From Flavobacterium alkalisoli (GTDB taxonomy: Bacteria > Bacteroidota > Bacteroidia > Flavobacteriales > Flavobacteriaceae): DNA of 64,000 bases. Positions 23,497-55,967 of the stretch are shown piece by piece. Both the position numbers and the translations under genes were made by a program. The stretch is taken from NCBI RefSeq assembly GCF_008000935.1, contig NZ_CP042831.1, forward strand, positions 3,038,001-3,102,000, given 5' to 3'. A model generated the notes under the pieces. That model was not told where the DNA came from and made no database searches. It saw only the letters and a list, made by a program, of their open reading frames with translations. Each line of letters begins with the position of its first letter. The first letter of the stretch is position 1.

Positions 23497-23574
23497 CGAA
23501 AGGAAGTTTCAAAAGAAACTTTACAAGTCAAAAAACCTTAAAACACTAGTGTTTTAAGGTTTTTTTGTTTTTAG
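23485..23574 (+). repeat. Left attachment repeat (attL), 3' tRNA end plus terminator
   Basis: It starts with the 13-base identity CCTCTTTCTCCGC, which is the tRNA-Ser 3' end. It continues through an AAGTTTC-AAAA-GAAACTT hairpin and the terminator palindrome to GTTTTTAG. It matches 52167-52255 with a few substitutions and one indel. Confidence 0.88.
23536..23566 (+). terminator. Terminator of tRNA-Ser
   Basis: A 24-bp perfect palindrome (23536-23559, CCTTAAAACACT and its complement) is followed by seven Ts. An identical palindrome sits in the right repeat at 52217-52240. Confidence 0.85.
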
Positions 23575-23608
23575 ATATATTCTAAAACACACATATAATA
23601 TCAAAGGA

Positions 23609-24745: not shown

Positions 24746-25861
24746 CTAATCCGTAATCGTCGGTAATTTGAAGGTATCGGTCTGGATATTGGCCGCATAG
24801 GCCTCATAAAGGCTCTTTAGTTTTTTATATTCTTCCGAATCTCTGTCATACTTTGCCAGCTGCTCTTTCAGTCGTTGTCCCTTACGGTTATATATGGAGT
24901 CATTATAGAGTTTCATAGCATCCTGTAGTGCTCCGGTTACCTCTCCGGTCTTGTCTTCAGGACCATAGAATTTCTTAAGTAGTGAAGCTGTTGCCAATGT
25001 TGGTGCAAATCCCTCCAGGTCCTGTCTTTTCCTTCCGTCCAGAAGAATAATCAAATAAGGTGCTTTGCCTTTATACACAGTACCGCTCTGCTTATCCACA
25101 AGTCGCAGTTTTTTATTTCCCGGGGTTCCTGACAGGTCTACCTTAAGGTTTTTGAACTCATCAAGGTCATTATTGTTGCAGATGATAAATTCCCTAGGTT
25201 CGGTTGGCGGAATAATCGGTGAATCAAATTTAACCTCAATCGAAGAGGACAGATTTGGTCTTCCCGAAAACAGTGCATCGCCAAGTTTGGAGCCGATATT
25301 TACCAGTTGAGAACCACCCAGCAGATAAGGTGCTGCCGGTAAAAAGACTGGGATGCCTGCCGCCGAAGTAAACAGTCCGGACAGCGTCTCAAATATCTGG
25401 GTGTCGAAATTGTCAAACATCAGTTCGAAGGAAGCAATCAGGTTCTCAGCATCCATTCCGGGTGTATAGTACACAATATTAGTACCTTCCTCCAAAGCAT
25501 TAAACTCCAGATAGGCATTCTCCTCTACCTTATCGGCTTTCATATTTATGGCCCTGGAAGTAGCCTTAAAGGTCTGGGAACTTTTCACCCCGGTAACAAG
25601 AATGACATCTTTCTTACCACCTAAAAACTTCTTATACTCTCCGATATATACCGTAGCGATTTCAATACTCATGGGTTTACCGATTCCTATCGGCTTAAAG
25701 TTCCTTTCAAGTTGTATTGCAGTAAGATCATTTTGGGAAATCGCCTCGTTATTTACCCTTAGAACCTGCCCTCCGGGCATATTCAGTTCTCCAGTAATCC
25801 TTTTAGCCTGCAACTCCTCGGTATCCACCAGGGTGTTGCCAATAACTGATAATGTTGCCAT
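24746..25861 (-). CDS. Unknown 371-aa island protein, last gene of operon
   Basis: I recognise no family. The protein begins MATLSVIGNTLVDTEELQ with no signal peptide. Residues 1-150 look beta-rich. Residues about 161-190 form a Gly/Ala/Pro hydrophobic stretch (FTSAAGIPVFLPAAPYLLGG) that could insert in or lie on a membrane. A second beta-rich part (EFIICNNNDLDEFKNLKVDL) is followed by a helical, charged C-terminus (RLKEQLAKYDRDSEEYKKLK). It lies 51 bases after the LysM-NlpC gene. The layout suggests a structural or membrane-contact component, but no function can be given. Confidence 0.7.
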   Translation of the reverse strand: MATLSVIGNTLVDTEELQAKRITGELNMPGGQVLRVNNEAISQNDLTAIQLERNFKPIGIGKPMSIEIATVYIGEYKKFLGGKKDVILVTGVKSSQTFKATSRAINMKADKVEENAYLEFNALEEGTNIVYYTPGMDAENLIASFELMFDNFDTQIFETLSGLFTSAAGIPVFLPAAPYLLGGSQLVNIGSKLGDALFSGRPNLSSSIEVKFDSPIIPPTEPREFIICNNNDLDEFKNLKVDLSGTPGNKKLRLVDKQSGTVYKGKAPYLIILLDGRKRQDLEGFAPTLATASLLKKFYGPEDKTGEVTGALQDAMKLYNDSIYNRKGQRLKEQLAKYDRDSEEYKKLKSLYEAYAANIQTDTFKLPTITD

Positions 25862-25912
25862 AATAGATATATTCTTTAATTAGACTTCGCTTCTCAAATC
25901 GTTAAAGCTGGA

Positions 25913-26572
25913 TTAAAGGACTCCCGAAAACCTTCCCCATACCGTATCAGCCCTGTTGAAGACTGCCGGAGAAGTCTCCTGTATAGCTGTTCCGAAATTC
26001 CTGGAATTACCCGAGCTGCAGTGGATCACTTTTTTCATAACGCCTGCTTTCACCTCACTTACAATGCCCACATGCCCTATGGCCCTACCCGCTCCGTAGA
26101 CCACAATACATCCCGGCTCCGGAGTACTTATCTTTTCAAAAATACCGGAAGGGCTCTCCACATCACTCACCATGGCATCGGTATAGATCCATCCCCCGAA
26201 TTTCCTGTAGAAGGGCAGTTCTGTCTTTCGCGACAGGCCCAGTACCCAGCATACAAAACCACTGCAGTCGCAATAACCGTCTCTGGAAGGAAGCGCATCT
26301 GTAGGATACATCCCGCCACCCCCAAGCTTATATCTGATGGCAGAGCCGATTACAGATTGAGCGCGAAACACAAGTTCTCCGGCATTTACAGGATCGGTAA
26401 AAACGGCCTCCTCGGGAAGGTCCTGCATATTGGGAAGTATTAAAACCTGTCCCACAAAAATATGATCCGGGTTGGTAATAACCGGATTCATGGCTAAAAG
26501 TACCGAAAGCGGGACATGATACCTTTCAGCTATCCTGCCAAGTGTATCCCCTTTTTTGATCGTATATTGCAT
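25913..26572 (-). CDS. LysM plus NlpC/P60 peptidoglycan hydrolase without signal peptide
   Basis: In this 219-aa protein a LysM module occupies residues 1-48 (YTIKKGDTLGRIAERYHVPL...VGQVLILPN) from the very first residue, leaving no room for a Sec signal. The NlpC/P60 domain (about 68-219) has catalytic C103 in GYCDCSGFVCWV and H167 in AIGHVGIV. Enzymes of this kind cut peptide stems of peptidoglycan. A signal-less LysM hydrolase is usual for phage tails and contractile injection baseplates, or for lysis-released enzymes. It follows the patatin gene by 34 bases and precedes the 371-aa gene by 51. Confidence 0.88.
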   Translation of the reverse strand: MQYTIKKGDTLGRIAERYHVPLSVLLAMNPVITNPDHIFVGQVLILPNMQDLPEEAVFTDPVNAGELVFRAQSVIGSAIRYKLGGGGMYPTDALPSRDGYCDCSGFVCWVLGLSRKTELPFYRKFGGWIYTDAMVSDVESPSGIFEKISTPEPGCIVVYGAGRAIGHVGIVSEVKAGVMKKVIHCSSGNSRNFGTAIQETSPAVFNRADTVWGRFSGVL

Positions 26573-26606
26573 TATATATTGATATTGGTTGGTTTGTAAG
26601 GCTATA

Positions 26607-28328
26607 TTATTTCATAAGCCCTGTATCTTCGAGTTCTTTCAATATGGTTTTCTCTAAAAATTTATATACTTTTTTTCGTAGTATAAGTCGGTTAAGGATC
26701 GTTACCCAAAAGTTATCAGCAAATCTATTTATCAGGACTTCAATTCTTTTTTTTGCCGGGTTTTTATACCTTGCAATAAACTTTTCACGAGACAGCTTGG
26801 GAAACTCCTGATACTGTAGTTTTGCGTCTTCACCAAAGTTAGCTGTATCAGAAATGTCCTTTTTATTGTCCAGCTGCCTTAGGTCCGGGATAATCGGAAA
26901 TAGCCGCGCACTGTTTTCATCCCCTTTAATTTCATTGAAAACAAATCGGTTTCTTGCTTTTTCATTGGGTTCACAACAAAGACGTTGGGTAATATTTTCT
27001 TCAGTAACGGCAAAATAATACCTTAGGAAACTCTGGCAGTTCTGTCTGCCAAGATAATAATCGTGATGGCGCAGTGAACGGTCCAGAAATCCGGCAAAAC
27101 CGCTCAGGGGAGCCGTGGCCAGATCCTTACCTGCCCCTACCCGTTCACCGGTGCTGATGTCCTTTCGTACCGGAGCTATCAGGAACTTGGTACGGTCGCT
27201 CAACTCCAAAGCATCCAAAAGACCATCCTGATTGAACATCACCTGGTTGCGCAGTGCCTTAAACATCCCTTTAAGGATAGATAAAATATCCCTTGGAGGA
27301 TTGACATACGCAACGGAATTATCCTGGTTGGGGAACGGGTCAATCATAATTACAGCATACCTGTCTCTTTTTACAAGCTCTTTGTTCTTTTCCTTATTAA
27401 TTTTCATAGCGATGCCAAAAGGCTCATTATTGATCAGTCCACCATCGATGGAGTTGAATTCATAGTTGATACCCTGAGGCAGTAGAGGAGTAATTCCCTT
27501 TTTCTGTCCGAAAAGATATTTGGGATAACGGTTGATATACTCTCCTGCAATGCTTATCTCCCTTGACTTTAAGCCTATGGGAAAGGCAGCAGTACTCAAA
27601 GTGGCATTCTTCAGGTAGCCCATATCACCCGGGTTTTCAAGATTCAGTACATAATACAATGAGTTTTGGTCCTCAGGTACACCTTCAGGAAAATTCTCGT
27701 TGGCAAGACGGTAACGAAAAAAGCCGGCGTGGCTGGTAATTACCGTACCTCCCTGAGCGCTTCCCCCAAAATCAATCCTAAAATTCACACCACGCAGATT
27801 GGTGGTGGTCAGCACCAGATCAAGGCTATTGGAAATATAGGGAGGATAATGCTGCACCTCCTTGATGTGCAGTGCAGACTCAGCTATGGAATCAATAGAT
27901 GCACTATTGAGCAAAGACTCCGGCTTCTCTCCCTTTTTAAGGTCATCAGTAAATAACATACGTTCAAATGTGGTATACTGTATATCATCGGCCATCTCAA
28001 CCCAACCTTGGTAAAACCTATTATTTCTTCCGTAGGGATTGTCTCTGTTGACATGCTCAAAGTTCTGATCGACCAGATTTAAAAGTGTAAGGGAACCTGT
28101 TATACCTCCGGCTGAAGCACCACTAATGACATCAATCTCTACATCATGCATGGGAATTGAAAAATCATAATCGGGATGACCTTCTCCCAAAGCCCTGTTT
28201 TTTTGCTTGGCCCGTTCCCAAATGGAGAGGGTCTCAAGCAGATAGTCCATGGCACCTGCTGTATAGGCACCTGCAGAAACAGCACCTGCCATCGCTATGG
28301 AAATTTTAAATTTTTTATCCTCTTCCAT
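26607..28328 (-). CDS. Patatin-like phospholipase
   Basis: This 573-aa protein has the patatin catalytic parts: a Gly/Ala-rich opening (SIAMAGAVSAGAYTAGAMDY), nucleophile Ser72 in ISGASAGGI (GxSxG), and Asp295 in SIDGGLINNEPFG (DGG), forming the Ser-Asp dyad. LSTAAFPIGL is also typical. No signal peptide or T9SS domain is present. The C-terminal half has basic segments (NPAKKRIEVLINRF, LILRKKVYKFLEKTIL) that may bind lipid. It should release fatty acids from membrane phospholipid. In this operon, between fibre genes and a peptidoglycan hydrolase, it may be an effector, which is inference. Confidence 0.9.
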   Translation of the reverse strand: MEEDKKFKISIAMAGAVSAGAYTAGAMDYLLETLSIWERAKQKNRALGEGHPDYDFSIPMHDVEIDVISGASAGGITGSLTLLNLVDQNFEHVNRDNPYGRNNRFYQGWVEMADDIQYTTFERMLFTDDLKKGEKPESLLNSASIDSIAESALHIKEVQHYPPYISNSLDLVLTTTNLRGVNFRIDFGGSAQGGTVITSHAGFFRYRLANENFPEGVPEDQNSLYYVLNLENPGDMGYLKNATLSTAAFPIGLKSREISIAGEYINRYPKYLFGQKKGITPLLPQGINYEFNSIDGGLINNEPFGIAMKINKEKNKELVKRDRYAVIMIDPFPNQDNSVAYVNPPRDILSILKGMFKALRNQVMFNQDGLLDALELSDRTKFLIAPVRKDISTGERVGAGKDLATAPLSGFAGFLDRSLRHHDYYLGRQNCQSFLRYYFAVTEENITQRLCCEPNEKARNRFVFNEIKGDENSARLFPIIPDLRQLDNKKDISDTANFGEDAKLQYQEFPKLSREKFIARYKNPAKKRIEVLINRFADNFWVTILNRLILRKKVYKFLEKTILKELEDTGLMK

Positions 28329-28353
28329 ATGGCTTGTTATTTTTTAAACATGG

Positions 28354-29031
28354 CTAAAGTTGTGCATTGGGCGATACTATAATCTGTAAATCACCTGGTT
28401 TTATTCGAATACCTGTCGTACCTCGTGAAGAATCAATCCTAAAACTACAGAAATAGGTATTTGGTACTTTGAACCACAGGTAGATGAAATTGTCCGAACC
28501 AACATATTGTCCAGCCGTAATTTCCGTTGAACGGTTAACATGTGCTCTTTGGTTAATTAGATTATGTCCCGCAACATAACAATAGCCTACCCATACTATA
28601 TCAATAATCTCCCCTCCAACATAGCCATACCCTTCTGCCTTTATATGGTACATACCGTTCAGCGTATAGGTATTGTAGGGAAGTTTTATATGAAAAATAT
28701 TTGTTGCACTATTGGTTTGCGTACCAAATGTAGCCACGGCAAGCTCAACTCCTCCTACACTACTTCCGCTACCGGTGTTGAGCGTGATGTTTCCCGATGC
28801 AGGAGCGATTCCATTAACTGTTTTTACAGGAGCAAAGGTTTCTACCGAAGCTTTTACTCCTGCCGGTGTTACATATTTGGCATTGTTGGTCCCTGCCGTA
28901 ATTTCTGCCGTCGAAGCTTTGTCCTCGCTTTGGTGAACAAAACTGTCTACCACATCCGAAAATTGCATCTCTGTTGGGCGATCTCCCGTATTAAAATAGC
29001 CCTTTAGGGTGTTTTTATTTTGCGTTGCCAT
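28354..29031 (-). CDS. Tail-fibre-like protein, type A copy 4
   Basis: This 225-aa protein begins ATQNKNTLKGYFNTGDRPTE, the most divergent N-terminus of the four type A copies. It keeps the shared module FNTGDRPTExQFSDVVDSFVHQSEDKAS (key residues Gly, Arg-Pro-Thr, Gln-Phe, Ser-Phe-x-His, Glu). The fibre-like stretch TAGTNNAKYVTPAGVKAS and FAPVKTVNGIAPASGNI follow, as in phage fibre shafts. The C-terminal domain (about 95-225) contains NIFHIKLP, GQYVGSDNFIYLWFK and ends in SPNAQL. It lies 25 bases before the patatin gene. Confidence 0.72.
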   Translation of the reverse strand: MATQNKNTLKGYFNTGDRPTEMQFSDVVDSFVHQSEDKASTAEITAGTNNAKYVTPAGVKASVETFAPVKTVNGIAPASGNITLNTGSGSSVGGVELAVATFGTQTNSATNIFHIKLPYNTYTLNGMYHIKAEGYGYVGGEIIDIVWVGYCYVAGHNLINQRAHVNRSTEITAGQYVGSDNFIYLWFKVPNTYFCSFRIDSSRGTTGIRIKPGDLQIIVSPNAQL

Positions 29032-29044
29032 TAAATGATTCTAT

Positions 29045-29722
29045 TTATAATTGTGCCTGAGCACTTACAATAACCTCAATATCGCCTTCATAAACCTGAA
29101 AACCATTACCTACTTTGATCGAATCCACTTTAAATGAACAGTAATACGTGTTGGGTACCTTTAGCCATAAATAGATATGATTATCTGAACCAACATACTG
29201 ACCGGCAGTAACGGCTGTGGACCTGATTACCTCTGTCTTTGGATTCTTTAGAATCCCGGCATTTTTATAACAGTACCCTACCCATACCACATCTATGATA
29301 TCTGTAGCGTTATATACATAACCTTTAGCCTCAAAATGAAACATCGCATTGTGCAATGCAAGACTATGAGGCAATTTCAGATGAAAAATATTTGTGGAGC
29401 TACTGGTTCCGGTGAAAAATTTGACTACTCCCAATTCAGTACTTCCCACAACTGTTCCGCCTCCCGTGTTGATTGCTACATCGCCTGCAACAGGGGCTAT
29501 CCCATTCACGGTCTTAACAGGTGCAAAGGTCTGCACTGAAACTTTTGCACCTGCCGGTGTTACATATTTCGTATTGTTGGTCCCTGCCTGAATTTCTGCC
29601 GTCGAAGCTTTGTCCTCGCTTTGATGAACAAAACTGTCCACCACATCCGAAAACTGATCTTCCGAAGGACGGTCTCCCGTATTAAAAAAACTTTTTAATA
29701 TATTTCTAAGTTGAATTGCCAT
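29045..29722 (-). CDS. Tail-fibre-like protein, type A copy 3
   Basis: This 225-aa protein has the same design as the other type A proteins: AIQLRNILKSFFNTGDRPSE, the shaft VTPAGAKVSVQTFAPVKTVN, and a C-terminal domain with NIFHLKLP, DIIDVVWVGYCYKN and GQYVGSDNHIYLWLK, ending in SAQAQL. Differences from other copies gather at about 90-108, 119-126 and 150-162. Those segments would be surface loops if the C-terminal domain binds a receptor. It is separated from copy 4 by 13 bases. Confidence 0.72.
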   Translation of the reverse strand: MAIQLRNILKSFFNTGDRPSEDQFSDVVDSFVHQSEDKASTAEIQAGTNNTKYVTPAGAKVSVQTFAPVKTVNGIAPVAGDVAINTGGGTVVGSTELGVVKFFTGTSSSTNIFHLKLPHSLALHNAMFHFEAKGYVYNATDIIDVVWVGYCYKNAGILKNPKTEVIRSTAVTAGQYVGSDNHIYLWLKVPNTYYCSFKVDSIKVGNGFQVYEGDIEVIVSAQAQL

Positions 29723-29737
29723 TTATTTTTTATTTTA

Positions 29738-30175
29738 TTATATACTTTCTGAACTTAGCATCTTCCATGGATACCATGTATCACCATAACGATTCCTGAA
29801 ATATATATTATTGTAAGAACCATATGCATGATAAGTTTGATAAACAAAACCACTTGTAGTAGTAACTTCAAGTTTTCCGGCTTTAGCTATAGGATAATTT
29901 AACCCAGAGGCTGCTCTTGCATTTAATTTCTGAAAGAAAAGTCCTGTTTCAGTATAATTATTAAGATCTGCGGCATCAGGAATTGAGCCTTTATCACTAA
30001 GTGTAACATCTTCATTTGCTTTTGTGTTTAGGGAACCATTTAAGTTCTCAATCTTCGATTGTGGAATTATCTCGTCTTTATGCCAAAAAGACTGCCAGGT
30101 ATCCCAAAATTGTGATTGGGTTGGTCTCTCACCTGTTTTAAACCAATTTAATATTGTATTTAAATTTACCGCCAT
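29738..30175 (-). CDS. Tail-fibre-like protein, type B copy 2 (one pyocin-knob-like domain)
   Basis: The 145-aa protein begins VNLNTILNWFKTGERPTQSQ and then FWDTWQSFWHKDE, a start common in flavobacterial phage-type fibre proteins. A short linker follows (IPQSKIENLNGSLNTKAN). One knob-like unit occupies about residues 65-145: LNNYTETGLFFQ, NYPIAKAGKLEV, YQTYHAYGSYNNIYFRNRYG and WYPWKML. Such knobs bind carbohydrates at fibre tips in pyocins and phages. The N-terminal module is recognisably the same as in the type A proteins. Confidence 0.7.
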   Translation of the reverse strand: MAVNLNTILNWFKTGERPTQSQFWDTWQSFWHKDEIIPQSKIENLNGSLNTKANEDVTLSDKGSIPDAADLNNYTETGLFFQKLNARAASGLNYPIAKAGKLEVTTTSGFVYQTYHAYGSYNNIYFRNRYGDTWYPWKMLSSESI

Positions 30176-30180
30176 ATTAT

Positions 30181-30858
30181 TTATAATTGCGTCTGACTAC
30201 TTACTATAACTTCTAATTGTCCCGGTAACACCTGAATACCATTCCCTACTTTCATTGAGTCTATCTTAAATGAGCAGTAATATGTTCTGGGGACTTTAAA
30301 CCACAAATAGATATAATTATCACTACCGATATACTGACCTGCTGTAATGGTTGAAGATTTGCTTACCACCGTATTAGCATAAATTAGGTTTGCCTGCGGT
30401 TTATAACATCTGCCTACCCACACAATATCAATAACATCGCTAGATCTGTAGGCGAATCCTTCTGCCTTAAAATGAAACATATTTTGATGAACATTAATAT
30501 TAAAAGGCAGTTTTATGTGAAATATATCGGTACTGCTGTCAGGTGTATGCAAATATCTTAATACAGCCGGTTCAACACTACAAACATCATTACCTCCTCC
30601 CGTATTAATAGAAACATTGCCTGAAACCGGTGTCTGCCCGTTTACGGTTTTAACCGGTGCAAAGGTTTGTACTGAGGCTTTTGCCCCTGCAGGTGTTACA
30701 TACTTGGCATTGTTTGTTCCTGCCTGAATTTCTGCCGTAGAGGCCTTGTCTTCGCTTTGGTGAACAAAACTGTCTACTAGATCCGAAAACTGATTTTCTG
30801 TAGGACGATCCCCTGTATTAAAAAAACTCTTTAGTATATTTCTAAGTTGAATTGGCAT
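30181..30858 (-). CDS. Tail-fibre-like protein, type A copy 2
   Basis: The 225-aa protein begins PIQLRNILKSFFNTGDRPTE and has the shared shaft (VTPAGAKASVQTFAPVKTVN) and C-terminal domain (DIFHIKLP, VIDIVWVGRCYK, GQYIGSDNYIYLWFK), ending in SSQTQL. Relative to copies 1 and 3 it differs most in the segment after GGG (NDVCSVEPAVLRYLHTPDSS). It is bracketed by the two type B genes with gaps of 5 and 7 bases, which gives an A-B-A-B order. Confidence 0.72.
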   Translation of the reverse strand: MPIQLRNILKSFFNTGDRPTENQFSDLVDSFVHQSEDKASTAEIQAGTNNAKYVTPAGAKASVQTFAPVKTVNGQTPVSGNVSINTGGGNDVCSVEPAVLRYLHTPDSSTDIFHIKLPFNINVHQNMFHFKAEGFAYRSSDVIDIVWVGRCYKPQANLIYANTVVSKSSTITAGQYIGSDNYIYLWFKVPRTYYCSFKIDSMKVGNGIQVLPGQLEVIVSSQTQL

Positions 30859-30865
30859 AGTGAAT

Positions 30866-31576: not shown

Positions 31577-31581
31577 ACTAT

Positions 31582-32259
31582 TTACAATTGTGTCTGATTA
31601 GTTACAAAAACTTCTATATCTCCCGGATTAACCTGGAAACCGTTACCTACCTTAATGGAATCTACCTTAAAAGTCACATAATAGGTATTTGCTGCCTTAA
31701 ACCATAAATAAATATGATTGTCCGAACCGATATACTGACCGGCCGTTATAACCGTAGACCTACTCACATCTGTTTTTTTATAGGTTAGGGTCCCCTGATT
31801 TTTATAACAATAGCCTACCCAGACGATATCTATAATATCGGCCGCATTATAGGCATAGCCTTCGGCTTTGAAATGGAACATGGCATTGTGCTGGTCAACA
31901 CGATGTGGTAACTTCAAATGGAAAATATTAGTTGCACTGCTACTTGTGTGTCTGAACTTCACAACACCCAGTTCCACACTCCCGTAATCGGTACCGCCAC
32001 CTATATTCAGGGCAACATTTCCGGAAACAGGTGTCAGACCATTCACGGTCTTAACCGGTGCAAAGGTCTGTACTGAGGCCTTCGCCCCTGCCGGTGTAAC
32101 ATATTTGACATTATTAGTTCCTACCTGCACCTCTGCCGTGGAGGCCTTATCTTCGCTCTGATGGACAAAACTGTCTACCACATCAGAGAACTGCGCCTCT
32201 GTCGGACGGTCCCCGGTATTAAAAAAGCCCTTAAGTATATTTCTGAGTTGTATTGCCAT
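31582..32259 (-). CDS. Tail-fibre-like protein, type A copy 1
   Basis: The 225-aa protein begins AIQLRNILKGFFNTGDRPTE and has the shaft VTPAGAKASVQTFAPVKTVN. The C-terminal domain contains NIFHLKLP, HNAMFHFKAEGYAYNAADII and GQYIGSDNHIYLWFK, and ends in TNQTQL. It is the first fibre gene after the 1564-aa giant protein, 5 bases downstream, so translation of the two is likely linked. No signal peptide is present. Confidence 0.72.
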   Translation of the reverse strand: MAIQLRNILKGFFNTGDRPTEAQFSDVVDSFVHQSEDKASTAEVQVGTNNVKYVTPAGAKASVQTFAPVKTVNGLTPVSGNVALNIGGGTDYGSVELGVVKFRHTSSSATNIFHLKLPHRVDQHNAMFHFKAEGYAYNAADIIDIVWVGYCYKNQGTLTYKKTDVSRSTVITAGQYIGSDNHIYLWFKAANTYYVTFKVDSIKVGNGFQVNPGDIEVFVTNQTQL

Positions 32260-32264
32260 AGTAA

Positions 32265-36959: not shown

Positions 36960-36979
36960 GATCTTTTTTATTTATAGGT

Positions 36980-39900: not shown

Positions 39901-42900
39901 GTTTATTATAGAGTATCGATTCGTTAAGCTGTGAGGTACTTAAAAGTACCGTATGAGGCTCACTCTGGTTAATCGCATTAGGGTCCGGATTGCCGTATTG
40001 CACCTCCAGAGCCAAATCATCTATTAGTGGAGCGTAGTACTTTATTCTTACTCCCTGACTGTCACTGCTGAGCTTTAGTGATATGTATACCGAAGGTTCC
40101 GGCAAAATTGTCTGAAGTTTCTTTTTATTACCGAAGGCCAATGATTTTGCAAAACCAAATACATTGGTATGATCCGTTATCTCCGCATAATCATTATCTG
40201 TTGTGTTAAGCAGTAAAAAAGCGGCTTCATTGGAATAGATCATCTGGTTACCGTCAAAGAAATAATACTGCTGTTGTAACGGCTTGTCCAAAAAGTCAGC
40301 ACATTTAGGAGAAAGGTGTTCACCTTCACAGAAAAGTGTACCGGGAGTCAGCCCATACTGTTCAGGAATGTACCATCCAGGTTCCCCCTGTTCAGTATAA
40401 GAGAAAGGTGTTGTTGCCAATAACCTTACCGTATTGTACCTGCCATCTGATTTCTGAAACTGACCTATTTTAAGGTTATCAAAAGCCGAACTCTGATCAT
40501 CAGGATACAAGGCCTTATAAGGATGATAATCCACCCATGCTGCCGATACGCCTTGTGAGGCCGGCCTCCATGATTTTATAACCAGACTCTCCAGTGAATA
40601 CTGGTGTTTCACCTGACGTAACTCTTTTCCTTTAACCACCTTATCTGGTGGTATCAGATCAGTATATTTATCGGGCGGATTAGTAACTCCGCCTATCAGA
40701 TTTCCAACCGCACCCGGCAATAGTGCTTTTTCGGTCTTTAAATCAATATAAGTATCCAGAGGGATTATATGCTGGGTAATCTGCGAAGGTAGGTTTGAAG
40801 GTATTGAACTACCCAGATATGCCAATTCAAATGTTTCATTGCTAAGCATATTAACCCCTTTGACAATTTGTGGGATTATGGCAGTATTAGTACCATTAAT
40901 CAATGGATTAATTGGAGTTCTGTCAACATTCTTGCTCTTCTCCCAAAGTACTTCAACTTCCTGATCAAAAGAGAACTTGAAGACAAACAGTATTTTGATC
41001 TTAATCTTTATTCTTACCTTACCGTAGATCAGATATGGTTGTGATGCCTCAACAGCAAAAAGTATTTGGAATGATGCAGACAGTTCTACAAACTTGACAT
41101 TGATCTCGGCACCAACACCGGCATCAAGATAAGCACCGAACTGAGGCTTCTCAAAACTTATCTTACCTCCAACCTCAATATATGCCCAGGCATGTACCTT
41201 GATAATTCCGGCATAGTTCCTTTGGAAGTCAAACTCACCCCTTGAACCGGCCTCAATACCCCTGCCTGAAAGCATTAGGTAACTCTTAAGGGTAACTAAC
41301 TGTAGTATTTCTGCGGTAACAGGGTTATCCCTGGTTCCAATATTCACATACCACTTCGATGGATTATTAAAAAAGAAAGCAGCCTGAACATCGGCATAAA
41401 GTTTCAGTATAGATCCACTTCCTGTAGGCATTTTAAAATCTGCTCCAAAGCCGAATTCCAGGGAATTATCCCCGATAGCCACAAAGGCAAAAAACGGCGG
41501 ATCCTGAGTATTGTCAAGTCCTAACCTTGCGGATAAAACAGCGGCTCGCCCGTCAATCATAAATAATGACGGAACGGACAACAGAATCATTGCTTTAATA
41601 TTAAGAACCGTACCATTGTCAAACGAGGTTCCCAACGATGCACCTGCACCTATAGAAAAAGGATCCTGGGCATTGTTTGTCTGATTTGGTCCCCTAAATT
41701 TAGTAACATGAATACCACGTGGCGGCACCTTATAATAATCATACCAAGTATCTACTCCGGAAACGAGACCCACGGCCTCTTTCTCGGCAACATACCTATA
41801 GCCTAATAATCCTCGGAAACCATAAATGGCAAATGTGCCTAAAGGAATAGGAGCCGGGAATTCAATTGAGGCATCTATGATAAAGGCCGGGTATCTAGGT
41901 GCCAATTTCATATCGGCACTACCGGTTATTTTGGCTTTTGGTAATTGAATTTTGATACCTCCGGCATACTCAGGTGAAGTTCCCGGCTCCGGAATGGATA
42001 ACCATCCGTTTATTATGGCAACTGGCGTACTGGCTGGTATTGTAAGATCCAAATAAAGAGTTTGAATATGCAGATAGGCCTGTGGCTTGTTAGGAAGGTC
42101 ATCCGTACAATAATAATACTTGATACCATCTCCCCTTATTTCGACTCCTAACGGATCTACGTTAATACCACCATCAAATCCGAAATAATTGAACTTGCGC
42201 ATTACGCCATTCACTTCTTTCTGGTGTGATCCATAATGGATTGCAGTAACCGTGATATCCGCAGGACCAAGAGGTAATACTATTGGTTCAGCAAGATTGA
42301 TGGAACCGCCATCAAACTCCATAGAACCATCACTATAAATACGTAGTCTGTCAATCTCAATAGGTCCCAATTTAAGGACATCTCTTAGTATACCTTCAAA
42401 CTGCAAAGTTCCTGAGGTACCCAAATAAAATGGACTATTACTATTATCCCTGCCTAATTCAACTGTTTTAAGGTTATAAGTAAAAATATCTTTTAATGTA
42501 ATCGGTAACTGTTGTGTTTTGGCTGTAAGATTAAAACCTCCATCTTCCTGTACATGTCCTTCAATGTCAATTTGCATTGGAGAATCTTCCAAAAAATGTC
42601 CTTCCGGATAGGTGAACTTATTCAATTCCAGTACTCCGGAAATATTGGAGGAAATAACTTTACTTTGGCTAAAGGTTATGTCAAAACTCCTGAAACCAAC
42701 TTTAAAACCATTATCATTTCCAATTCTTTTCCACAATATATTTTCATTAAGCGATGCCAAATAACTATAATATTCGGAAGCAGTTGTAAATTTCAGTACC
42801 TGTGATGAACCCACAGGCTGCAATGAAAGCGGAAACTTAAACGCATAAGGCACGTCTTGATTTAGCGTTGCTAAATAAGCTCTTAAATCAACATAATTTG

Positions 42901-44215
42901 AGAAATTTACCTCGAAAAACTGATTCGTTTCATCATTTTTTTCATACAGAGTTACAGGATAAATAAAATTAAACTTATCGTTAAAATACTGGAATTCTGT
43001 TCCTACTCCGACTGGTACCGCTTCAAGACCAATAATACCTGAAAAACCTCCGGTGCCTATTAAAAGATCATACGCTCCTAATCGTAAAGAAGTAGTTGTA
43101 TTTCCTGTAATTTCGGATTCCTGAGTAAACCATCGTGGAGGAAAAGTGACCGATACAGCACGAGCATAAACCCCGGTAAAATTCTCTGGTCTATTATCAT
43201 TAAAAGCTTCTGGTATGTTGGTACTCTTACTCAAGTCCAGCTTAAGGCTCTCAATCTGAACCAGAAGACCTGTATCGCCAATTTCACAATATCTTGGATT
43301 TAGGGTTCCCGCAAGTTCCAAATTATAACCTACTCCCGCATCTGTATCAGCATATAAAATAGCCTTAGCAAAATCAAAATAAGCTTTACTTTCAGGATTA
43401 GGATCGGGCAAGGTTCCTAAATCATTCCATGGCTTAAGTATATTTCTCGGAAATTCAATTGAAGCTGATACTTCCAAGGTCACCCTTGCCCGTGGTATCA
43501 GTATTTCCCTTAAGTAGGTTTTAAAATCATAAGGAACGAAGGCTTTAAAAAAGGCTTCCGTATTATCTTGTGTTGTAGCTACATCCGTATTTAGGAGATA
43601 AGTCTTAAAAACAGCAACTGAAGCAATACTTTCATATTTTATCTCAATATCTCTTACAAGTTCTTGAGCGGGATTGTCTGTCACCGGATAAGAGATGGGT
43701 GCGCTCAAATGTCCGGACAGAGCAGTATTTAAATCATCAACAAATAGATTTACCGGATTTAACGAAGGAGGTATATCAACAGCTCTATTTTTAATAGCTT
43801 GATCAACAACTTCTATTTCGGAAATATTGAAAACGGTAAGACCTAACTTGTAAAAATCCTCAAGACTAAAAGAAAAAGTCTCAATATCAAAACTTTTAAA
43901 ATGAGCAATAATTGGCCAATTATACTCAATTGTGATCGGAAATGAGGAAATATCATTTTGATCTGTATCGCGGTTGAGAACAAATTTTAAACCTAAAAGC
44001 AGATCAAATGCTATTTGCTCACGAGTTATAATTTCTAAATTATAAAAAGCAGTTGAACCATCGTTACTGACTGATGACTGAAAATCTTTGTAAAAGATTT
44101 TTTCAAAAATATCGGCAGCCATTGTTTTTACAAAATCAAAGCTGTCAGGTATTGAATCTAATGTGATAAGATTCTTTAATGACGGATAATATTTTAGGTT
44201 GGTATTTACTGGCAT
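36980..44215 (-). CDS. Giant island protein, 2411 aa, unknown family
   Basis: This is the longest complete gene here. It has no signal peptide (MPVNTNLKYYPSLKNLITLD). The N-terminal 600 residues are beta-rich (EVNFSNYVDLRAYLATL). A middle part, about 600-1120, is a long run of amphipathic strands rich in Gly and aromatics (SIGAGASLGTSFDNGTVLNI, PSLFMIDGRAAVLSARLGLD, ending in KVRIKIKIKILFVFKFSFDQ). That is the look of a lipid-binding or barrel-like sheet. Residues about 1611-1932 are three Cys-containing helical repeats. The C-terminal part (to PPITIDVL) contains Ig-like segments. I know no function. A lipoprotein gene precedes it by 3 bases. Confidence 0.75.
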   Translation of the reverse strand: MPVNTNLKYYPSLKNLITLDSIPDSFDFVKTMAADIFEKIFYKDFQSSVSNDGSTAFYNLEIITREQIAFDLLLGLKFVLNRDTDQNDISSFPITIEYNWPIIAHFKSFDIETFSFSLEDFYKLGLTVFNISEIEVVDQAIKNRAVDIPPSLNPVNLFVDDLNTALSGHLSAPISYPVTDNPAQELVRDIEIKYESIASVAVFKTYLLNTDVATTQDNTEAFFKAFVPYDFKTYLREILIPRARVTLEVSASIEFPRNILKPWNDLGTLPDPNPESKAYFDFAKAILYADTDAGVGYNLELAGTLNPRYCEIGDTGLLVQIESLKLDLSKSTNIPEAFNDNRPENFTGVYARAVSVTFPPRWFTQESEITGNTTTSLRLGAYDLLIGTGGFSGIIGLEAVPVGVGTEFQYFNDKFNFIYPVTLYEKNDETNQFFEVNFSNYVDLRAYLATLNQDVPYAFKFPLSLQPVGSSQVLKFTTASEYYSYLASLNENILWKRIGNDNGFKVGFRSFDITFSQSKVISSNISGVLELNKFTYPEGHFLEDSPMQIDIEGHVQEDGGFNLTAKTQQLPITLKDIFTYNLKTVELGRDNSNSPFYLGTSGTLQFEGILRDVLKLGPIEIDRLRIYSDGSMEFDGGSINLAEPIVLPLGPADITVTAIHYGSHQKEVNGVMRKFNYFGFDGGINVDPLGVEIRGDGIKYYYCTDDLPNKPQAYLHIQTLYLDLTIPASTPVAIINGWLSIPEPGTSPEYAGGIKIQLPKAKITGSADMKLAPRYPAFIIDASIEFPAPIPLGTFAIYGFRGLLGYRYVAEKEAVGLVSGVDTWYDYYKVPPRGIHVTKFRGPNQTNNAQDPFSIGAGASLGTSFDNGTVLNIKAMILLSVPSLFMIDGRAAVLSARLGLDNTQDPPFFAFVAIGDNSLEFGFGADFKMPTGSGSILKLYADVQAAFFFNNPSKWYVNIGTRDNPVTAEILQLVTLKSYLMLSGRGIEAGSRGEFDFQRNYAGIIKVHAWAYIEVGGKISFEKPQFGAYLDAGVGAEINVKFVELSASFQILFAVEASQPYLIYGKVRIKIKIKILFVFKFSFDQEVEVLWEKSKNVDRTPINPLINGTNTAIIPQIVKGVNMLSNETFELAYLGSSIPSNLPSQITQHIIPLDTYIDLKTEKALLPGAVGNLIGGVTNPPDKYTDLIPPDKVVKGKELRQVKHQYSLESLVIKSWRPASQGVSAAWVDYHPYKALYPDDQSSAFDNLKIGQFQKSDGRYNTVRLLATTPFSYTEQGEPGWYIPEQYGLTPGTLFCEGEHLSPKCADFLDKPLQQQYYFFDGNQMIYSNEAAFLLLNTTDNDYAEITDHTNVFGFAKSLAFGNKKKLQTILPEPSVYISLKLSSDSQGVRIKYYAPLIDDLALEVQYGNPDPNAINQSEPHTVLLSTSQLNESILYNKPSWRAVTKIVIEPLYPNPVLLNSLQAQIQGINNLNAQIALGLATGTPQSTDSLISELNLINGQQGNISSQGYSFDLDNNLYQADNNTTLLTAWDFGSGHKVKGNPFGFMVSGNVLTIESRHQILGVRLFPEFPTTRYELINDGRKATVLAGDIRDFIVPGEGIKLEIDVFETKCEKDETLCELYDSLLQIYNGCLIDPSQIREEEIPDVAKCIANSRSLIYDFDKQYPQYEVENIYIDQTKDIDTFMADQTLEHYVRAYQALAKIIEGIEQTGGCDCGCDEDYELCKLYDDLMAIYQSCLMDPGVAEESDMTAMTGCMQSYLSTVGDFDSNFPDYELAKKLYYDQLKDINNFIANGSLASYQVAYAAAQEIQNGISIMGNCDCGGDKETTLEDLFNSIEEIYHNCFPDIDNLFDFSVQIGCAQDIIDFLNDFDTANPQYGIIGDLQDYIDLLLDFIVHPDAGSYQNAVGAIGEILDYLNDLGHYAFDKIPDTTLLHQVCWLSLESYEYNLNIPGQAAISQDAQATIDGITKYIQPVWRPDTSYVVQFVLKDTVDNGENSQLYPFTYGFTTGGPVGYFHTHPQSTYGGNQINSNPDAFALTSLRQYIDYERSYPNADGNLLSAKPLFYNDETSQIYLFFAKTYATHFFNTWQTYNGKAPVSGRMKIVIKDPVEGTQIVNPPYLDYDENDITTIHIPQTVEEWRDDLFPPVPFVISQWANLYQANNCIIVGADPIKPASKFISIALKHLKPEKLYTAIVNNLYDSDGNGQFSAVDETREVHKFVFKTSRYASFAEQVNSYLLTDGTGDDSVSREAVFSISKPLTAQQVDMAYKTIVGVANPADSYINQYQHAYDRIFEGILGLEPLDEAVSTEFNFIRNSNDNKVIAVIVRNPEPFNIPRIPISEIMDTLQVMNGSSPDTNYKVVFSKDYAQAIIMHSSQAITAPSLSFKFRYKIWNGYSYEESGNVPPITIDVL
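38420..39385 (-). repeat. Three Cys-containing ~105-aa repeats inside the 2411-aa protein
   Basis: The repeats start at ETLCELYDSLLQIYNGCLID, YELCKLYDDLMAIYQSCLMD and TLEDLFNSIEEIYHNCFPDI. Each continues with a conserved C (VAKCIANS, MTGCMQSY, IGCAQDII), then DFDxxxPxYE/G, an I-D-x-F/L helix, and an A-Y-Q-x-A-x-x-I-I helix. Linkers are GGCDCGCDEDYE and GNCDCGGDKET, Cys-Gly rich. The pattern points to disulfide- or metal-stabilised helical bundles. Confidence 0.7.
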
Positions 44216-44218
44216 AAT

Positions 44219-45208
44219 CTAATCTTTAATGAAAACTTTCCTTAACTCATCAATTTTCTCCTGCTGCTCCTTATCTTTTTCAGTATATTTTTGATACATC
44301 TCCTCATTATTTTCAAATTCATCTATAACAAGTCCTGTTTTACCATCAATAATTCTGTGCAACAATCTTTTTTCTCCTAACCTATAAGGAACTATCCAAA
44401 AATCTCCTAGTTTGTTTTTATTCCGTATTATATCAAGTATCGCTACATTATATACAGTATCGTCATTATCAATAAGCTCTTTTCTTCCTTTTAATATAAT
44501 TGATATAATTGTTGCAAAATCCATTTTAAATCCATCTTCATGATTAACAGACATTGATAAATCTCCATTTTCATCAAAACCGTCTTCTGCACCGATAGAA
44601 ACGCCCCGAAATATTAAGTACATACTGCCAACTCTAGCCTTATTTATATTACAGGAATAATGACTAATAGTACCATCTGGATAGTAAGAAAACCAACAAG
44701 TATATTCTACGAGGGCCTCATCTGTAAATTCAGAATACTCGGAGTTCCCAGTATATATATTATCGTCAAGAGGTAAAACCTGCATTTTAATTTCTTCAAT
44801 ATATTTTAATATGTTATCACCTGAATAAGCATAACGTACAACATCATACTTATCTTTAGGCTTTAAGTAAGTTTGGTCGTAGGTGACATACTCATAATTA
44901 TAAGATTCTGTATTAACATTTGTTACCTTAATTAAATGATTCTTTCTAGCCTCCCAATAAGCATTATCATTATTACCATAAATTTCTATTACTTGGCTCC
45001 TAAGTAAGCTGTTTTTCATATCTCTTTTTAATTCCTTAGAAGGATTGAAGACTTTTCGTTCCGGTGTTAGTTCGGGTACATTCACACCTTTAATATTGAC
45101 AAATTTTTCTTTCATGACATATTGTTTATATTTAGGTGCCTTACTCACCGTGCATGATGTAAAAGCAGCTATAATAATAATTGTAATAAGGACTATTTTC
45201 TTTTCCAT
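44219..45208 (-). CDS. Island lipoprotein, 329 aa
   Basis: It begins MEKKIVLITIIIIAAFTSCT, a lipoprotein signal with lipid Cys at residue 19. It is the only gene of the minus-strand run with export information. The mature part is charged and mixed alpha/beta (RKVFNPSKELKRDMKNSLLR, YTCWFSYYPDGTISHYSCNI), and it ends in a Lys/Glu-rich helix (KDKEQQEKIDELRKVFIKD). I do not recognise a family. Its start overlaps the end of the protease gene by 16 bases, and it lies 3 bases before the giant gene. It may anchor the complex in the outer membrane, which is inference. Confidence 0.75.
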   Translation of the reverse strand: MEKKIVLITIIIIAAFTSCTVSKAPKYKQYVMKEKFVNIKGVNVPELTPERKVFNPSKELKRDMKNSLLRSQVIEIYGNNDNAYWEARKNHLIKVTNVNTESYNYEYVTYDQTYLKPKDKYDVVRYAYSGDNILKYIEEIKMQVLPLDDNIYTGNSEYSEFTDEALVEYTCWFSYYPDGTISHYSCNINKARVGSMYLIFRGVSIGAEDGFDENGDLSMSVNHEDGFKMDFATIISIILKGRKELIDNDDTVYNVAILDIIRNKNKLGDFWIVPYRLGEKRLLHRIIDGKTGLVIDEFENNEEMYQKYTEKDKEQQEKIDELRKVFIKD

Positions 45209-48200
45209 GATTGTGCTATTTTACGTGCTTTTAACCATTGCCAATAATATGTTGCTGGCTGGGAAGTATACAATGAAGTAGCAAGCTGAGTATAATCCAT
45301 AATATTATCCGTTTTTCTCGAATCAAATGAAAATTTTTCCCACCTACTGAAAGTATGCCCTAACCCCAACGAATGCAGGACTTCATGTGCGCAAGTAATT
45401 TTATCATTTTCATTCTGTGTAAACATGATCGCGTCTGAATTTTCCCCTGATGAAAAGCCTCCAAGAAATCTGCCATCTAGTTCAACAGCTTGATTTGTTA
45501 TTGCATCTTTAGTTTTTGCTCTGCGGTTTATAAAATAGATTATTAAACTCGTTTGCGGCAAACCATTTACAGGTATAGGATTTGAAACAGCATCGGGAAG
45601 TTTACTCTTAAGGTAATCTTTAATAGGAACATAGCCTGAGGGAGGTGTGCCTTCTATTTTTCCTGCAATTAGAATACCATCTCCGGAATTAACGATATAA
45701 TCACCTCCTAATAGAAATTTAGGATCGGTCGATACATCAATTATTGGACTCTCATCAAATATCGGAATATTAGCCTTTATTCCTGCTTGGTGTAAATATC
45801 TTATTAAATAATCACGTTGTTTATCATACATCGACCGACTGACAATAGTAGTCCCAGGTCCATCAAAATTTTTAATTGTAACATTAGCAATGATAACATT
45901 GAGCTGTATTTCCGGCTCCTGAAAAATTTTAATCATCCCCGCAATATTTTCTTTTCTTTGGCCATTAATGTTTTCTGTAGCAAATATCTCAAGTCTTCTA
46001 TTTTGTTCATCTGCTGATGCTTCTTGTAGTCTTTTTATCTTTATTGTAAAATTATCTTCTATGGAGGAGTCTGTAAAAAGGGATCCCGGTAATATATAAT
46101 CCTTGATATTATTTGGTTTATTCTCTCTATTTCCTATTTCAGTACCGTCATTATATACGGTTATTTCATAATTACTTGCTTCGTAGGTTATAGTAAGTCT
46201 TTCAGGAACAGCATTTACAATAATTCTTAACTTCAGAACAGCCTCTTCAGCAGGACCCAGTCTTAGCCAAGTTGTAAAATACTCATCATTAGGTAAGGTT
46301 CCCCATGGAACGAGAACAGCATCATATATCTCTCTTTTTAACTGAGAATATATTTCAGGTCTGAATTCAAAGGGTAAATCAAATTGATTCATATCAGTCT
46401 GTCCGATAAGGATACCTGTAATTTCACTAAAAGGAGGATAATAAATATTACTGGAACTTAATGGTTCAGTACGCATCCAGTCAACTCCGTACTCACCAAT
46501 GCCATAAAAATTATCCGATGGTATCCCTTTCCAATTATCTTTTGGTAAAAAGTTGACAATGGTATCTGCTATTTGTGAAGCATAACTAAACGAATTAGAA
46601 AATCCTGTACTAGTAAATATAAGACCATTTCCGGAGTAAACCATTATCTCACTTCCAACCGCGGGAAAAGCCACAATAACCTCTCCATCAATATTTTCAT
46701 ATTTAATTCCCACCTCAGCACTATACACCCCATCAGTATATGACAAGTTTTTAAATTCTACATAAATATTTAATTTGTCATCTGTATTAATATTTAAAAG
46801 GCTGTTATATTGATCATTAGTAATACCCAACATATAACTCCGATTAAGATTATTAAAATCTGTACCATTACCTGTTATACTAAGATAAAAAATCGGAGTA
46901 CCATTAACCATTTTTTGATTTTTCCAAAATCTTAGAGTATCACCTGTTAAAGCATCATTTATATTAAAAATACTATTCAAATCATAGTCTATACTATATT
47001 TAGCAATTAATTCCTGTGTACTTTTAATAAATTCAGTTTCAGGAGAATCAATTGTATATGCCACATATAATCTATTTGCTGCAGCCTGATCATAAACAAT
47101 ATAATTTTGTGTCAAGTATTTTGAGTTATTAAATTTAGCCATTGCTAATTTTTTGTATACGACAGTCTCGATAAGATTATCATTATTCTCATAATCTAAA
47201 GCTTCGTAAATCCTTTCCAAATCTATAGGACCAAAAATATCCTCACAATTATTAAAATTATCAACTAAATCAGTCTCTCGATAAAATGCATATACAAAAT
47301 TTGCAACCATTACTCTATCAGGATCATTATCTATTTGAGTAATACCTCCTGAAATATTGTTGATATAAGCCGGCTTTTTAAATATTATGTCCGTGTGATC
47401 TTTTGGGTTTATTACAGTCTTGTCGCCAACATCTGTTGCATACCTCTCTTCAATATAATAACTTTTGTTAAATGAATCATTTAGGTAGAAAAACGAATCG
47501 AACGTTTCATTTTTTGTTAAATCAAATTGTATATTGAAATAAATTGTGTTCTCAGGTATTGGATACTTACTTGTATTAGGCTGCGGTCCCTCAAGACGTG
47601 GCCACATAAAATTTTCATTTGTTCTTGAAATTCCTGGAGATGTACTACCTGTAATTATCCTTATAGGCCAATGTTGTGTCTTTAAAAAATTAGATACACC
47701 GCTATGAACATTAGCTGGTCCAGGTGGATTATAAAAGTCAACGGACCTTCCCCTTTTTCCTAAAACATATAGGTACAAATTATTTTTTGTTATGAATTTA
47801 TTTATTATGTTCAAATAAATCTCCGAAGTATAAAAAATTTTATCCGAATTACTATTACTATCTGGAAAATGTATGACCTTGTTAACATCACTATTCCTTT
47901 GAATATCCTTACTTTGCAAGCTTTCGACAGATATATGAGCTCCATAAAAAGCCGCAGGATCCAAAAACATAAAAACATTTTCTCTGAAAATTTTATCGCT
48001 TACCGAAGCAGGTTTATTACCCGCTATATCTGAAGGATTACTACTATTGACATTTAAGATACATTCCTTCGCTTTCAGATAGTCTATATCAAGACTAAAT
48101 CCCGATTCTTCTATACTCTGCACATAGTCACCAAAATCAATAACCACGTCAAACCCTAAGTTATTTTTAAAGGAACCAATAACATCTCCGGCTTTAACCT

Positions 48201-48690
48201 TTGGTAAATTATAGGTGGTTTGGTTAAAAAATTTCTTTATAATCTTCTCATCAGAAGTGATACTGGAATCTATCCCTATATAAGTTGCTTTAAACTGCTC
48301 ATTCGGGTTAGCGGCATTAAACTCTCCAAAATCATCCCAAAGCTGAGCAATTAAGGGAGTTGCGTCAGGATCTCCCAAAGCTGTAACTAAATCTTCATTA
48401 TTGAAAGTCTTTATAAAGTTACTTTTTTTAATCCCCCTGTAAATCAGATATTTGATTTTCACTCCCATATATAAAGAATTCAAAGGCTTCAAAACAACGT
48501 TCACCTTGTCACTGTAGGCTGAATTGGGAACTACGAATAAATGTCCGTCAGTCACAGCATACGCCTTAAGTTCGCCAGTAAAAGTAAAGGAGGAAGTAAC
48601 CCTAAAACTATTTTCATCTATAGGTCCAAAACCCAGATTATTCTCTTCCGATAAACCGTCTGTATTTGTAAAAAAATAAGAAGTCGCCAT
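45193..48690 (-). CDS. Large metzincin-type metalloprotease, 1165 aa, first gene of operon
   Basis: The zinc site HEVLHSLGLGH is at residues 1102-1112 (HExxHxxGxxH), with a Met-turn NIMDY at about 1129-1133. These identify a metzincin, close to the pappalysin (M43) type. The catalytic domain is only the last ~200 residues. About 950 residues precede it, beta-rich and of no family known to me (MATSYFFTNTDGLSEENNLG, VKIKYLIYRGIKKSNFIKTF). There is no signal peptide and no T9SS C-terminal domain; the protein ends WLKARKIAQSWKRK. The gene is much more AT-rich than the giant genes downstream. A toxin-like or processing role for the operon products is possible. Confidence 0.8.
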   Translation of the reverse strand: MATSYFFTNTDGLSEENNLGFGPIDENSFRVTSSFTFTGELKAYAVTDGHLFVVPNSAYSDKVNVVLKPLNSLYMGVKIKYLIYRGIKKSNFIKTFNNEDLVTALGDPDATPLIAQLWDDFGEFNAANPNEQFKATYIGIDSSITSDEKIIKKFFNQTTYNLPKVKAGDVIGSFKNNLGFDVVIDFGDYVQSIEESGFSLDIDYLKAKECILNVNSSNPSDIAGNKPASVSDKIFRENVFMFLDPAAFYGAHISVESLQSKDIQRNSDVNKVIHFPDSNSNSDKIFYTSEIYLNIINKFITKNNLYLYVLGKRGRSVDFYNPPGPANVHSGVSNFLKTQHWPIRIITGSTSPGISRTNENFMWPRLEGPQPNTSKYPIPENTIYFNIQFDLTKNETFDSFFYLNDSFNKSYYIEERYATDVGDKTVINPKDHTDIIFKKPAYINNISGGITQIDNDPDRVMVANFVYAFYRETDLVDNFNNCEDIFGPIDLERIYEALDYENNDNLIETVVYKKLAMAKFNNSKYLTQNYIVYDQAAANRLYVAYTIDSPETEFIKSTQELIAKYSIDYDLNSIFNINDALTGDTLRFWKNQKMVNGTPIFYLSITGNGTDFNNLNRSYMLGITNDQYNSLLNINTDDKLNIYVEFKNLSYTDGVYSAEVGIKYENIDGEVIVAFPAVGSEIMVYSGNGLIFTSTGFSNSFSYASQIADTIVNFLPKDNWKGIPSDNFYGIGEYGVDWMRTEPLSSSNIYYPPFSEITGILIGQTDMNQFDLPFEFRPEIYSQLKREIYDAVLVPWGTLPNDEYFTTWLRLGPAEEAVLKLRIIVNAVPERLTITYEASNYEITVYNDGTEIGNRENKPNNIKDYILPGSLFTDSSIEDNFTIKIKRLQEASADEQNRRLEIFATENINGQRKENIAGMIKIFQEPEIQLNVIIANVTIKNFDGPGTTIVSRSMYDKQRDYLIRYLHQAGIKANIPIFDESPIIDVSTDPKFLLGGDYIVNSGDGILIAGKIEGTPPSGYVPIKDYLKSKLPDAVSNPIPVNGLPQTSLIIYFINRRAKTKDAITNQAVELDGRFLGGFSSGENSDAIMFTQNENDKITCAHEVLHSLGLGHTFSRWEKFSFDSRKTDNIMDYTQLATSLYTSQPATYYWQWLKARKIAQSWKRK

Positions 48691-49274: not shown

Positions 49275-49282
49275 TATGTTTG
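49275..49282 (+). promoter_or_regulatory. -7 promoter box of RCC1 protein gene
   Basis: TATGTTTG is a perfect TAnnTTTG match 23 bases before the ATG at 49306. It overlaps the upstream in-frame ATG at 49276, so the downstream ATG is the likely start. Confidence 0.5.
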
Positions 49283-49305
49283 TAAAAATTTCACATCTTA
49301 TCCAT

Positions 49306-55961: not shown

Positions 55962-55967
55962 ACCGTA

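Follow-up and report, generated by a model that had tools for sequence, protein, structure and literature searches.

The window, i.e., the whole 64-kb stretch of DNA that was analyzed (64,000 nt), is drawn from the 3.99 Mb single-contig genome of Flavobacterium alkalisoli. It contains an operon of 13 genes on the minus strand, running from position 48690 to 24746. A previous reading made from the sequence alone (the sequence-only reading) had described 13 co-directional genes with tiny gaps or overlaps; the open reading frames (ORFs) are present with those coordinates and lengths, and the intergenic gaps in operon order are -16, 3, 20, 5, 5, 7, 5, 15, 13, 25, 34 and 51 bp. Three of the genes, termed A, B and C, form the core of the gene set, which is apparently undescribed. 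Full-text literature searches found no description of an A-B-C system among the results listed. The genes in operon order are as follows.

45193..48690, minus strand: core gene A, 1165 aa, a conserved N-terminal domain (A-domain profile) and a C-terminal metzincin cargo (Astacin match)
44219..45208, minus strand: 329-aa lipoprotein, candidate immunity protein for the metzincin by its position and lipobox-like N-terminus
36980..44215, minus strand: core gene B, 2411-aa DUF6603 giant (PF20248, 33.2 bits, cut-off 27)
32265..36959, minus strand: core gene C, 1564-aa giant with predicted FN3-like and CBM-like jelly-roll domains
31582..32259, minus strand: fibre F6, residues 8-35 of which are 64% identical to gp46 of Flavobacterium phage lotta8-1
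30866..31576, minus strand: fibre F5, two knob-like repeats, PHROG tail-fibre matches
30181..30858, minus strand: fibre F4, shared N-terminal module
29738..30175, minus strand: fibre F3, one knob-like repeat, PHROG tail-fibre matches
29045..29722, minus strand: fibre F2, shared N-terminal module
28354..29031, minus strand: fibre F1, shared N-terminal module
26607..28328, minus strand: patatin-like phospholipase (PF01734, 31.7 bits)
25913..26572, minus strand: LysM-CHAP peptidoglycan hydrolase without a signal peptide, a proposed endolysin (PF01476, 53.7 bits; PF05257, 34.9 bits)
24746..25861, minus strand: 371-aa protein, the last gene of the operon, no family above cut-off (Pfam, PHROGs, NCBIfam)

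A scan of species genomes yielded 33 loci in which Bacteroidota, Acidobacteriota and Chlorobiota are represented. The window, the 21 of the 33 loci with wider flanks and five loci from further genomes make up the 27 loci counted here; the other 12, with flanks as found, stand outside this count. Gene A, then B, then C directly after B are found in 27/27 loci, an order kept more than chance would allow. The gap between B and C ranges from -4 to 204 bp, with a median of 11. The core genes stay together in other genomes, a check that the sequence-only reading had put forward. The A-domain profile matched all 31 system genomes, once in 26 and twice in five.

Protein A consists of a conserved domain of ~350 aa and an exchanged C-terminus. 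Among 28 matched relatives (29 were tested; the unmatched one, L008, is cut by a contig end), 26 have the domain at the N-terminus; in loci L026 and L030 it is internal, preceded by an extension that in L026 includes a subtilase. The metzincin listed by the sequence-only reading is present, as one variant of a swappable cargo. Its Pfam Astacin score is 22.6 bits against a cut-off of 22.5, and the motifs HExxHxxGxxH and MDY are present. The full motif follows the A domain in the window and in L009, L013, L017, L018, L019 and L025; with looser motifs found by eye in L011 and L012, there are nine metzincin loci in total. Other A proteins end in a C15-peptidase-like region (L008, L026 and L029, the last below cut-off) or an esterase-like match (L024). 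Judged by these comparisons, the metzincin is the replaceable cargo of A, and A would be a cargo adaptor.

There is a second architecture, where A is about 700 aa long and a separate toxin-like protein of ~900-1200 aa is encoded by the gene after it. In a set of 33 such proteins, compiled without two short ones and with some near-duplicates among them, residues 1-500 match in 502/528 pairs, and the last 150 residues match in 87/528 pairs and fall into eight groups. The combination of a conserved N-terminus and exchanged C-terminal toxins, characteristic of polymorphic toxins, is found in the relatives; the window displays one form only. The largest C-terminal group (n=20) includes EndoU, which scores 35.2 bits in L027 (cut-off 25.3) and 20.8 bits, below cut-off, in L003. 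A recognised toxin domain is present by virtue of EndoU in L027, the only one of ten scanned cargo C-termini to pass a curated cut-off; the window itself has the metzincin only. The EndoU Pfam domain is precomputed in 6 of 23 database homologues, and a seventh is named EndoU. In F. limnosediminis a second A-toxin-partner cassette lies in tandem upstream of the first (approximately G452:C5:61678-66659; L055, L106), an arrangement that resembles toxin cassette banks.

The genes that follow the cargo form immunity-like families that go with the type of cargo. All five toxins of the EndoU group for which there is a locus are followed by a member of I1, a family of small proteins. In a leave-one-out test 9/10 members were recovered at E <1e-6 and one at 0.016, and at E 0.01 the I1 profile matched its own members only among 1002 ORFs (some repeated). 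In L002 and G278 the toxin ends are 40% identical and the partners 44% identical. Toxins in L006, L010 and L021 are followed by members of family I3, as is the toxin of the second, upstream cassette in F. limnosediminis. The toxin end of this cassette is linked to those of L006 and L010; the L021 end is not linked, and L021 carries I1 genes besides I3.

The partners also differ in predicted location. By a strict rule, the gene after the cargo is exported in 7/9 loci with metzincin-type A versus 0/12 with a separate toxin (Fisher p=0.0003), in a comparison whose classes were set by hand on sequences already seen and which left out L026, L028, L029, L030, L034, L031, G149 and fragments. L017 (a lipoprotein by eye) and L019 fail the strict rule. 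With three peptidoglycan-binding payloads the next gene is exported in 1/3 by rule and 3/3 by eye, and at four other single-chain loci in 3/4. The same rule finds no export signal in 104/107 core proteins (A, B, C and fibres, some partial). Within the window operon a clear signal is present in one of 13 proteins, the lipoprotein, as had been stated from the sequence; a crude export rule also flagged the patatin at a glycine-rich start, which was judged a false positive. The gene that follows the cargo resembles an immunity gene in its position, its family and the compartment of its product, and the window lipoprotein is probably the immunity protein of the metzincin.

Protein B is a member of DUF6603 by its PF20248 score, and one search found 622 homologues at E 0.001 or better. 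The sequence-only reading had asked whether the giants match known baseplate, sheath or secreted families; they show no sequence match to known structural families beyond the unnamed DUF6603, and no paper using the term DUF6603 was found in the literature searched. Structure models, which bear on whether a TcA-type channel fold is present, were built and searched for residues 1-1110 of B and 1-1010 of C. For B the model has a predicted local distance difference test score of 74.5 and a predicted template modelling score (pTM) of 0.43, and a long amphipathic beta-meander is predicted. C homologues at G278, G083, G341 and G321 (L044-L051) start with a DESGS stretch that resembles the start of a vWA domain; it is not seen in the window C.

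There is no match to B or C among 50,697 phage records and none to C in plasmid records. Among plasmids, B matches only stretches of 22% identity in four records from Mycetohabitans, and two of these are named DUF6603 proteins. The DUF6603 protein on the Mycetohabitans endofungorum plasmid (L104) adjoins a phospholipase D-like gene and a gene for a 1322-aa protein; this locus, from a fungal endosymbiont, is possibly a distant relative of the system. Scans of IMG/VR found no record with B and one with C. This record is a predicted provirus of 63.7 kb. It encodes A, then a toxin-like protein with an I3-like partner, then B, C and a fibre, followed by an integrase-like gene and after it genes that are phage-like by eye.

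The six fibre-like proteins named by the sequence-only reading are confirmed and are of two types, F1/F2/F4/F6 (62-77% identity) and F3/F5 (58%), which are alike over about the first 36 residues. The protein gp46, 28 residues of which match F6, is a structural protein of the contractile phage lotta8-1, encoded soon after the baseplate hub. F5-like stretches are found in 201 phage records and are fibre or minor-tail proteins where annotated, among those listed. F1 has one weak virion-structural match in PHROGs (E 0.007).

The wall hydrolase had been labelled LysM-NlpC/P60. The LysM part of the label holds; the second domain scores better as CHAP (34.9 bits, cut-off 26) than as NlpC/P60 (18.6 bits, cut-off 23). 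The protein has endolysin and minor-tail matches in PHROGs, and endolysin matches are also found at G278, G321 and G470. The endolysin component of a type 10 secretion system (T10SS) cassette is represented in the window by this CHAP protein. In three Flavobacterium copies (G278, G083, G341), A is immediately preceded by genes for a holin-like protein of 95 aa, a CHAP protein and a lipoprotein. In G278 the 95-aa protein and the 166-aa lipoprotein are in the order expected of holin and spanin, and similar genes are present in G083 and G341. Other loci carry M15, amidase-2 or amidase-3 enzymes. Together, fibres and lysis-type genes point to a lysis-released complex. The earlier proposal of such a complex is to this extent supported, with changed roles for the metzincin, the lipoprotein and the LysM-CHAP protein; the last was read as a weapon against the wall and is more likely an endolysin for release.

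The operon is part of a 28.7-kb island inserted at tRNA-Ser and bounded by a 96-bp direct repeat. The features of the island outside the operon are the following.

23412-23497: tRNA-Ser
23485..23580, no strand: left att-like repeat, containing the tRNA-Ser 3' end and terminator; direct repeat with 52167-52261
23748..24437, plus strand: truncated tyrosine-type integrase, 229 aa (PF17293, 24.5 bits; PF13102, 38.4 bits)
49276..52062, plus strand: RCC1-repeat, HYR, type IX-sorted protein inside the island (PF25390, PF18962)
52167..52261, no strand: right att-like repeat, partner of 23485-23580

The repeat pair aligns over 96 columns with 92.7% identity (E 9e-33). Other repeats in the plus-strand self-comparison (E 1e-8) lie only within the RCC1 gene, among the matches listed, which left out pairs among fibre genes and pairs beyond 56.9 kb. 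Between the repeats are the truncated integrase, the 13-gene operon and the RCC1/type IX-sorted gene. The integrase keeps only the N-terminal arm-binding and SAM-like domains and has 23% identity over 199 aa to a 418-aa integrase of the F. limnosediminis region. The tRNA site, flanking repeats and integrase, although truncated, are those of a tRNA-targeting genomic island. Att repeats are seen in two species, the second being F. akiainvivens, where the copy lies beside tRNA-Ser(TGA) and is flanked by a perfect 47-bp repeat. The spread of the system is patchy: B is found in 6/395 genomes from the phylum and in 2/60 relatives, with the window genome counted in both.

The absence of sheath, tube and baseplate genes, pointed out in the sequence-only reading, holds for the operon, where none of these families matched (Pfam, 13/13 operon proteins; PHROGs and NCBIfam, 10/13). 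It needs correction for the genome, which carries a contractile lotta8-like prophage at ~3.56-3.59 Mb (L113-L114, 3555001-3595000), 0.47 Mb from the operon. The 399-aa fibre of this prophage bears the island module (59% identity over 56 aa to F5, profile E 8e-20). The genome has no match to PF04984, PF05943 or PF04965, and its single PF10758 sheath is the one in the prophage. Sheath and gp25-type baseplate genes mark extracellular contractile injection systems (eCIS), type VI secretion systems and tailocins; neither kind is found at the locus by these scans of the operon proteins. Among the 31 system genomes, a PF04984 sheath matches in 11 (nine over cut-off), gp25 (PF04965) in 19 (18 over cut-off) and a PF10758 sheath in four, the window genome included. 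In the 30 genomes common to the three scans, which are mostly drafts and were tested for these three families, 17 have neither sheath family and nine lack PF04984, PF10758 and PF04965. On these counts a contractile tail seems unnecessary.

Tailocins are released by lysis, and the same is presumed here. As in eCIS and tailocins, phage-type fibres, a LysM protein and toxin genes are in one operon (PMC8213781), but at this locus there is no sheath, tube or baseplate family, and the core consists of two giants and a cargo adaptor. The Tc toxin YenTc of Yersinia entomophaga is released by a T10SS holin-endolysin-spanin lysis cassette (PMC10847048). Giant cytoplasmic proteins without signal peptides and toxins on larger proteins are common to YenTc and to the window system, as predicted here from its genes. 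Unlike Tc toxins, the window system has phage tail-type fibres and toxin-adjacent immunity-like genes, and no TcA, TcB, TcC or other Tc or RHS family matches the window proteins (Pfam, E up to 0.5). TANFOR toxins of Bacteroidetes have a Sec signal in ~87% of cases and neighbours enriched in substrates of the type IX secretion system (PMC7073777). They are like the present system in several ways: an N-terminal carrier domain, a toxin that is part of the same polypeptide or encoded by the following gene, a downstream immunity gene and EndoU among the toxins. The present system differs in that almost no core protein has a signal and the partners are giants. Protein A has no NCBIfam match and no export signal; whether NCBIfam holds a TANFOR model was not checked. 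In the 13 operon proteins Pfam finds no type IX C-terminal sorting domain, and the combination of Sec signal and sorting domain is absent. By analogy, the window system would resemble a lysis-released Tc toxin in its working and TANFOR toxins in its cargo logic.

Compared across loci, the system has a conserved A-B-C core, swapped cargo, cargo-matched neighbours, a shared fibre module and an att-bounded island. The reading that appears reasonably probable is that of a mobile polymorphic-toxin island encoding a lysis-released, non-contractile delivery complex, the carriers of which have no sequence match to a delivery machine. B and C would be synthesized in the cytoplasm and form a carrier complex, on which the fibres may dock through their phage-type N-termini and set the target range. 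The A domain would be the point at which cargo attaches, whether as a fusion (metzincin, C15-like, esterase-like) or as the toxin that the following gene encodes (EndoU, others). Lysis of some of the cells by the endolysin, which in some loci has holin-like and spanin-like partners, would free the complex. The target surface would be bound by the fibres and the CBM and FN3 domains of C, and the amphipathic beta-sheet of B may contact or cross the membrane. The gene beside each cargo would protect kin in the compartment where the cargo acts. A more specific form of this proposal is tentative, and more doubtful than probable: a further type of lysis-released particle, neither contractile tail nor Tc toxin, in which B would be a giant amphipathic beta-sheet or barrel protein and act as a conduit inserted into the outer membrane of the target, C a carbohydrate-binding shell that bears interchangeable phage fibres and A a universal adaptor for fused hydrolases or separate nucleases, carried by an integrative island across several phyla.

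Several observations weigh against the delivery complex. The fibre module is present in only 18/27 loci, a count that includes four seed loci and the window, which together seeded the profile. A wall hydrolase is detected in 11/27 loci, counted as similarity to one of five verified hydrolases. No holin or spanin is recognised in the window, and the 95-aa and lipoprotein genes of G278 match no lysis family. There is no gene between A and B in L026, L028, L029, L030 and L034. Of ten scanned cargo C-termini, four have no family or only matches at E >0.04, two more show nothing beyond chance, and the toxin-deaminase match is weak, below cut-off and limited to one member of one group. The B model is weak by its pTM. 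The fibre of the contractile prophage in the same genome carries the same module as the island fibres.

This last point favours an alternative in which the operon would supply weapons to a contractile phage tail or tailocin whose genes lie elsewhere, with fibres and toxins loaded on the tail of a resident prophage. It stays alive because the genome holds such a prophage, and PF04984 and gp25 are present in 11 and 19 of the 31 genomes. It is unlikely given that 17 of 30 genomes, mostly drafts, match neither of the two sheath families tested, nine of them also lacking gp25, and given the failure of B and C to match any phage record. The region could also be a remnant or moron of an unknown phage and have no delivery role itself. 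The fibre module, the endolysin, an S24 repressor and a DUF3164 protein close to the G278 copy (G083 and G341 have similar genes) and the predicted IMG/VR provirus bearing the whole A-toxin-partner-B-C-fibre set are in line with this. However, the giants are intact and conserved over Bacteroidota, Acidobacteriota and Chlorobiota, the toxins have matched immunity-like partners, the window proteins show no terminase, portal or capsid family (PHROGs, 10/13), and Terminase_6N has no match in the IMG/VR record. A phage remnant is quite improbable.

Little credence is given to a surface or secreted digestive operon for nutrient use whose products would leave the cell by a route not recognised so far. 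All enzymes recognised in the window operon are hydrolases, C has a CBM-like domain and the island encodes a type IX-sorted protein, but the core proteins lack export signals, and the EndoU with unexported partners seen in the relatives would have no place in digestion. Very improbable indeed is a conflict system that works inside the cell, as phage defence or abortive infection, its toxins directed at the producer. The patatin, EndoU and deaminase domains would suit it, since they also occur in defence systems. The fibres, the lysis genes and those candidate immunity proteins that are exported do not agree with it, and PADLOC, run on 9 of the 13 operon proteins, gave a single weak match (REase_II, E 0.001, to the 371-aa protein). 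If the delivery complex is real, it would represent a new class of bacterial weapon that brings carriers of its own, it would provide a first functional hypothesis for the DUF6603 giants, and it would imply that phage tail fibres are reusable on a non-contractile carrier. The adaptor-cargo rule, i.e., a fused enzyme or next-gene toxin with compartment-matched protection, gives predictions that are testable gene by gene.

A family of ~215-223 aa proteins that read like DNA-binding response regulators is found near the system in nine loci (L002, L004, L006, L010, L014, L018, L021, L027, L034), which suggests regulated expression. The patatin may be an accessory effector or a lysis helper; its relatives are encoded directly after C in Chryseobacterium FH1 and farther downstream in Winogradskyella. 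The 371-aa protein has no match among the phage records and no relative among the BLAST matches listed for the loci. Counterparts of the RCC1 protein lie near the system copies of F. akiainvivens (48%), G459 (43% over 402 aa) and G457 (32% over 381 aa), and it is possible that this protein is an extra island function. Outside the island, at 54024-63998, a gene for a DUF11-repeat protein, very long and bearing a CHU_C type IX signal, is followed by a gene that is PorP-like by eye and an OmpA-family gene.

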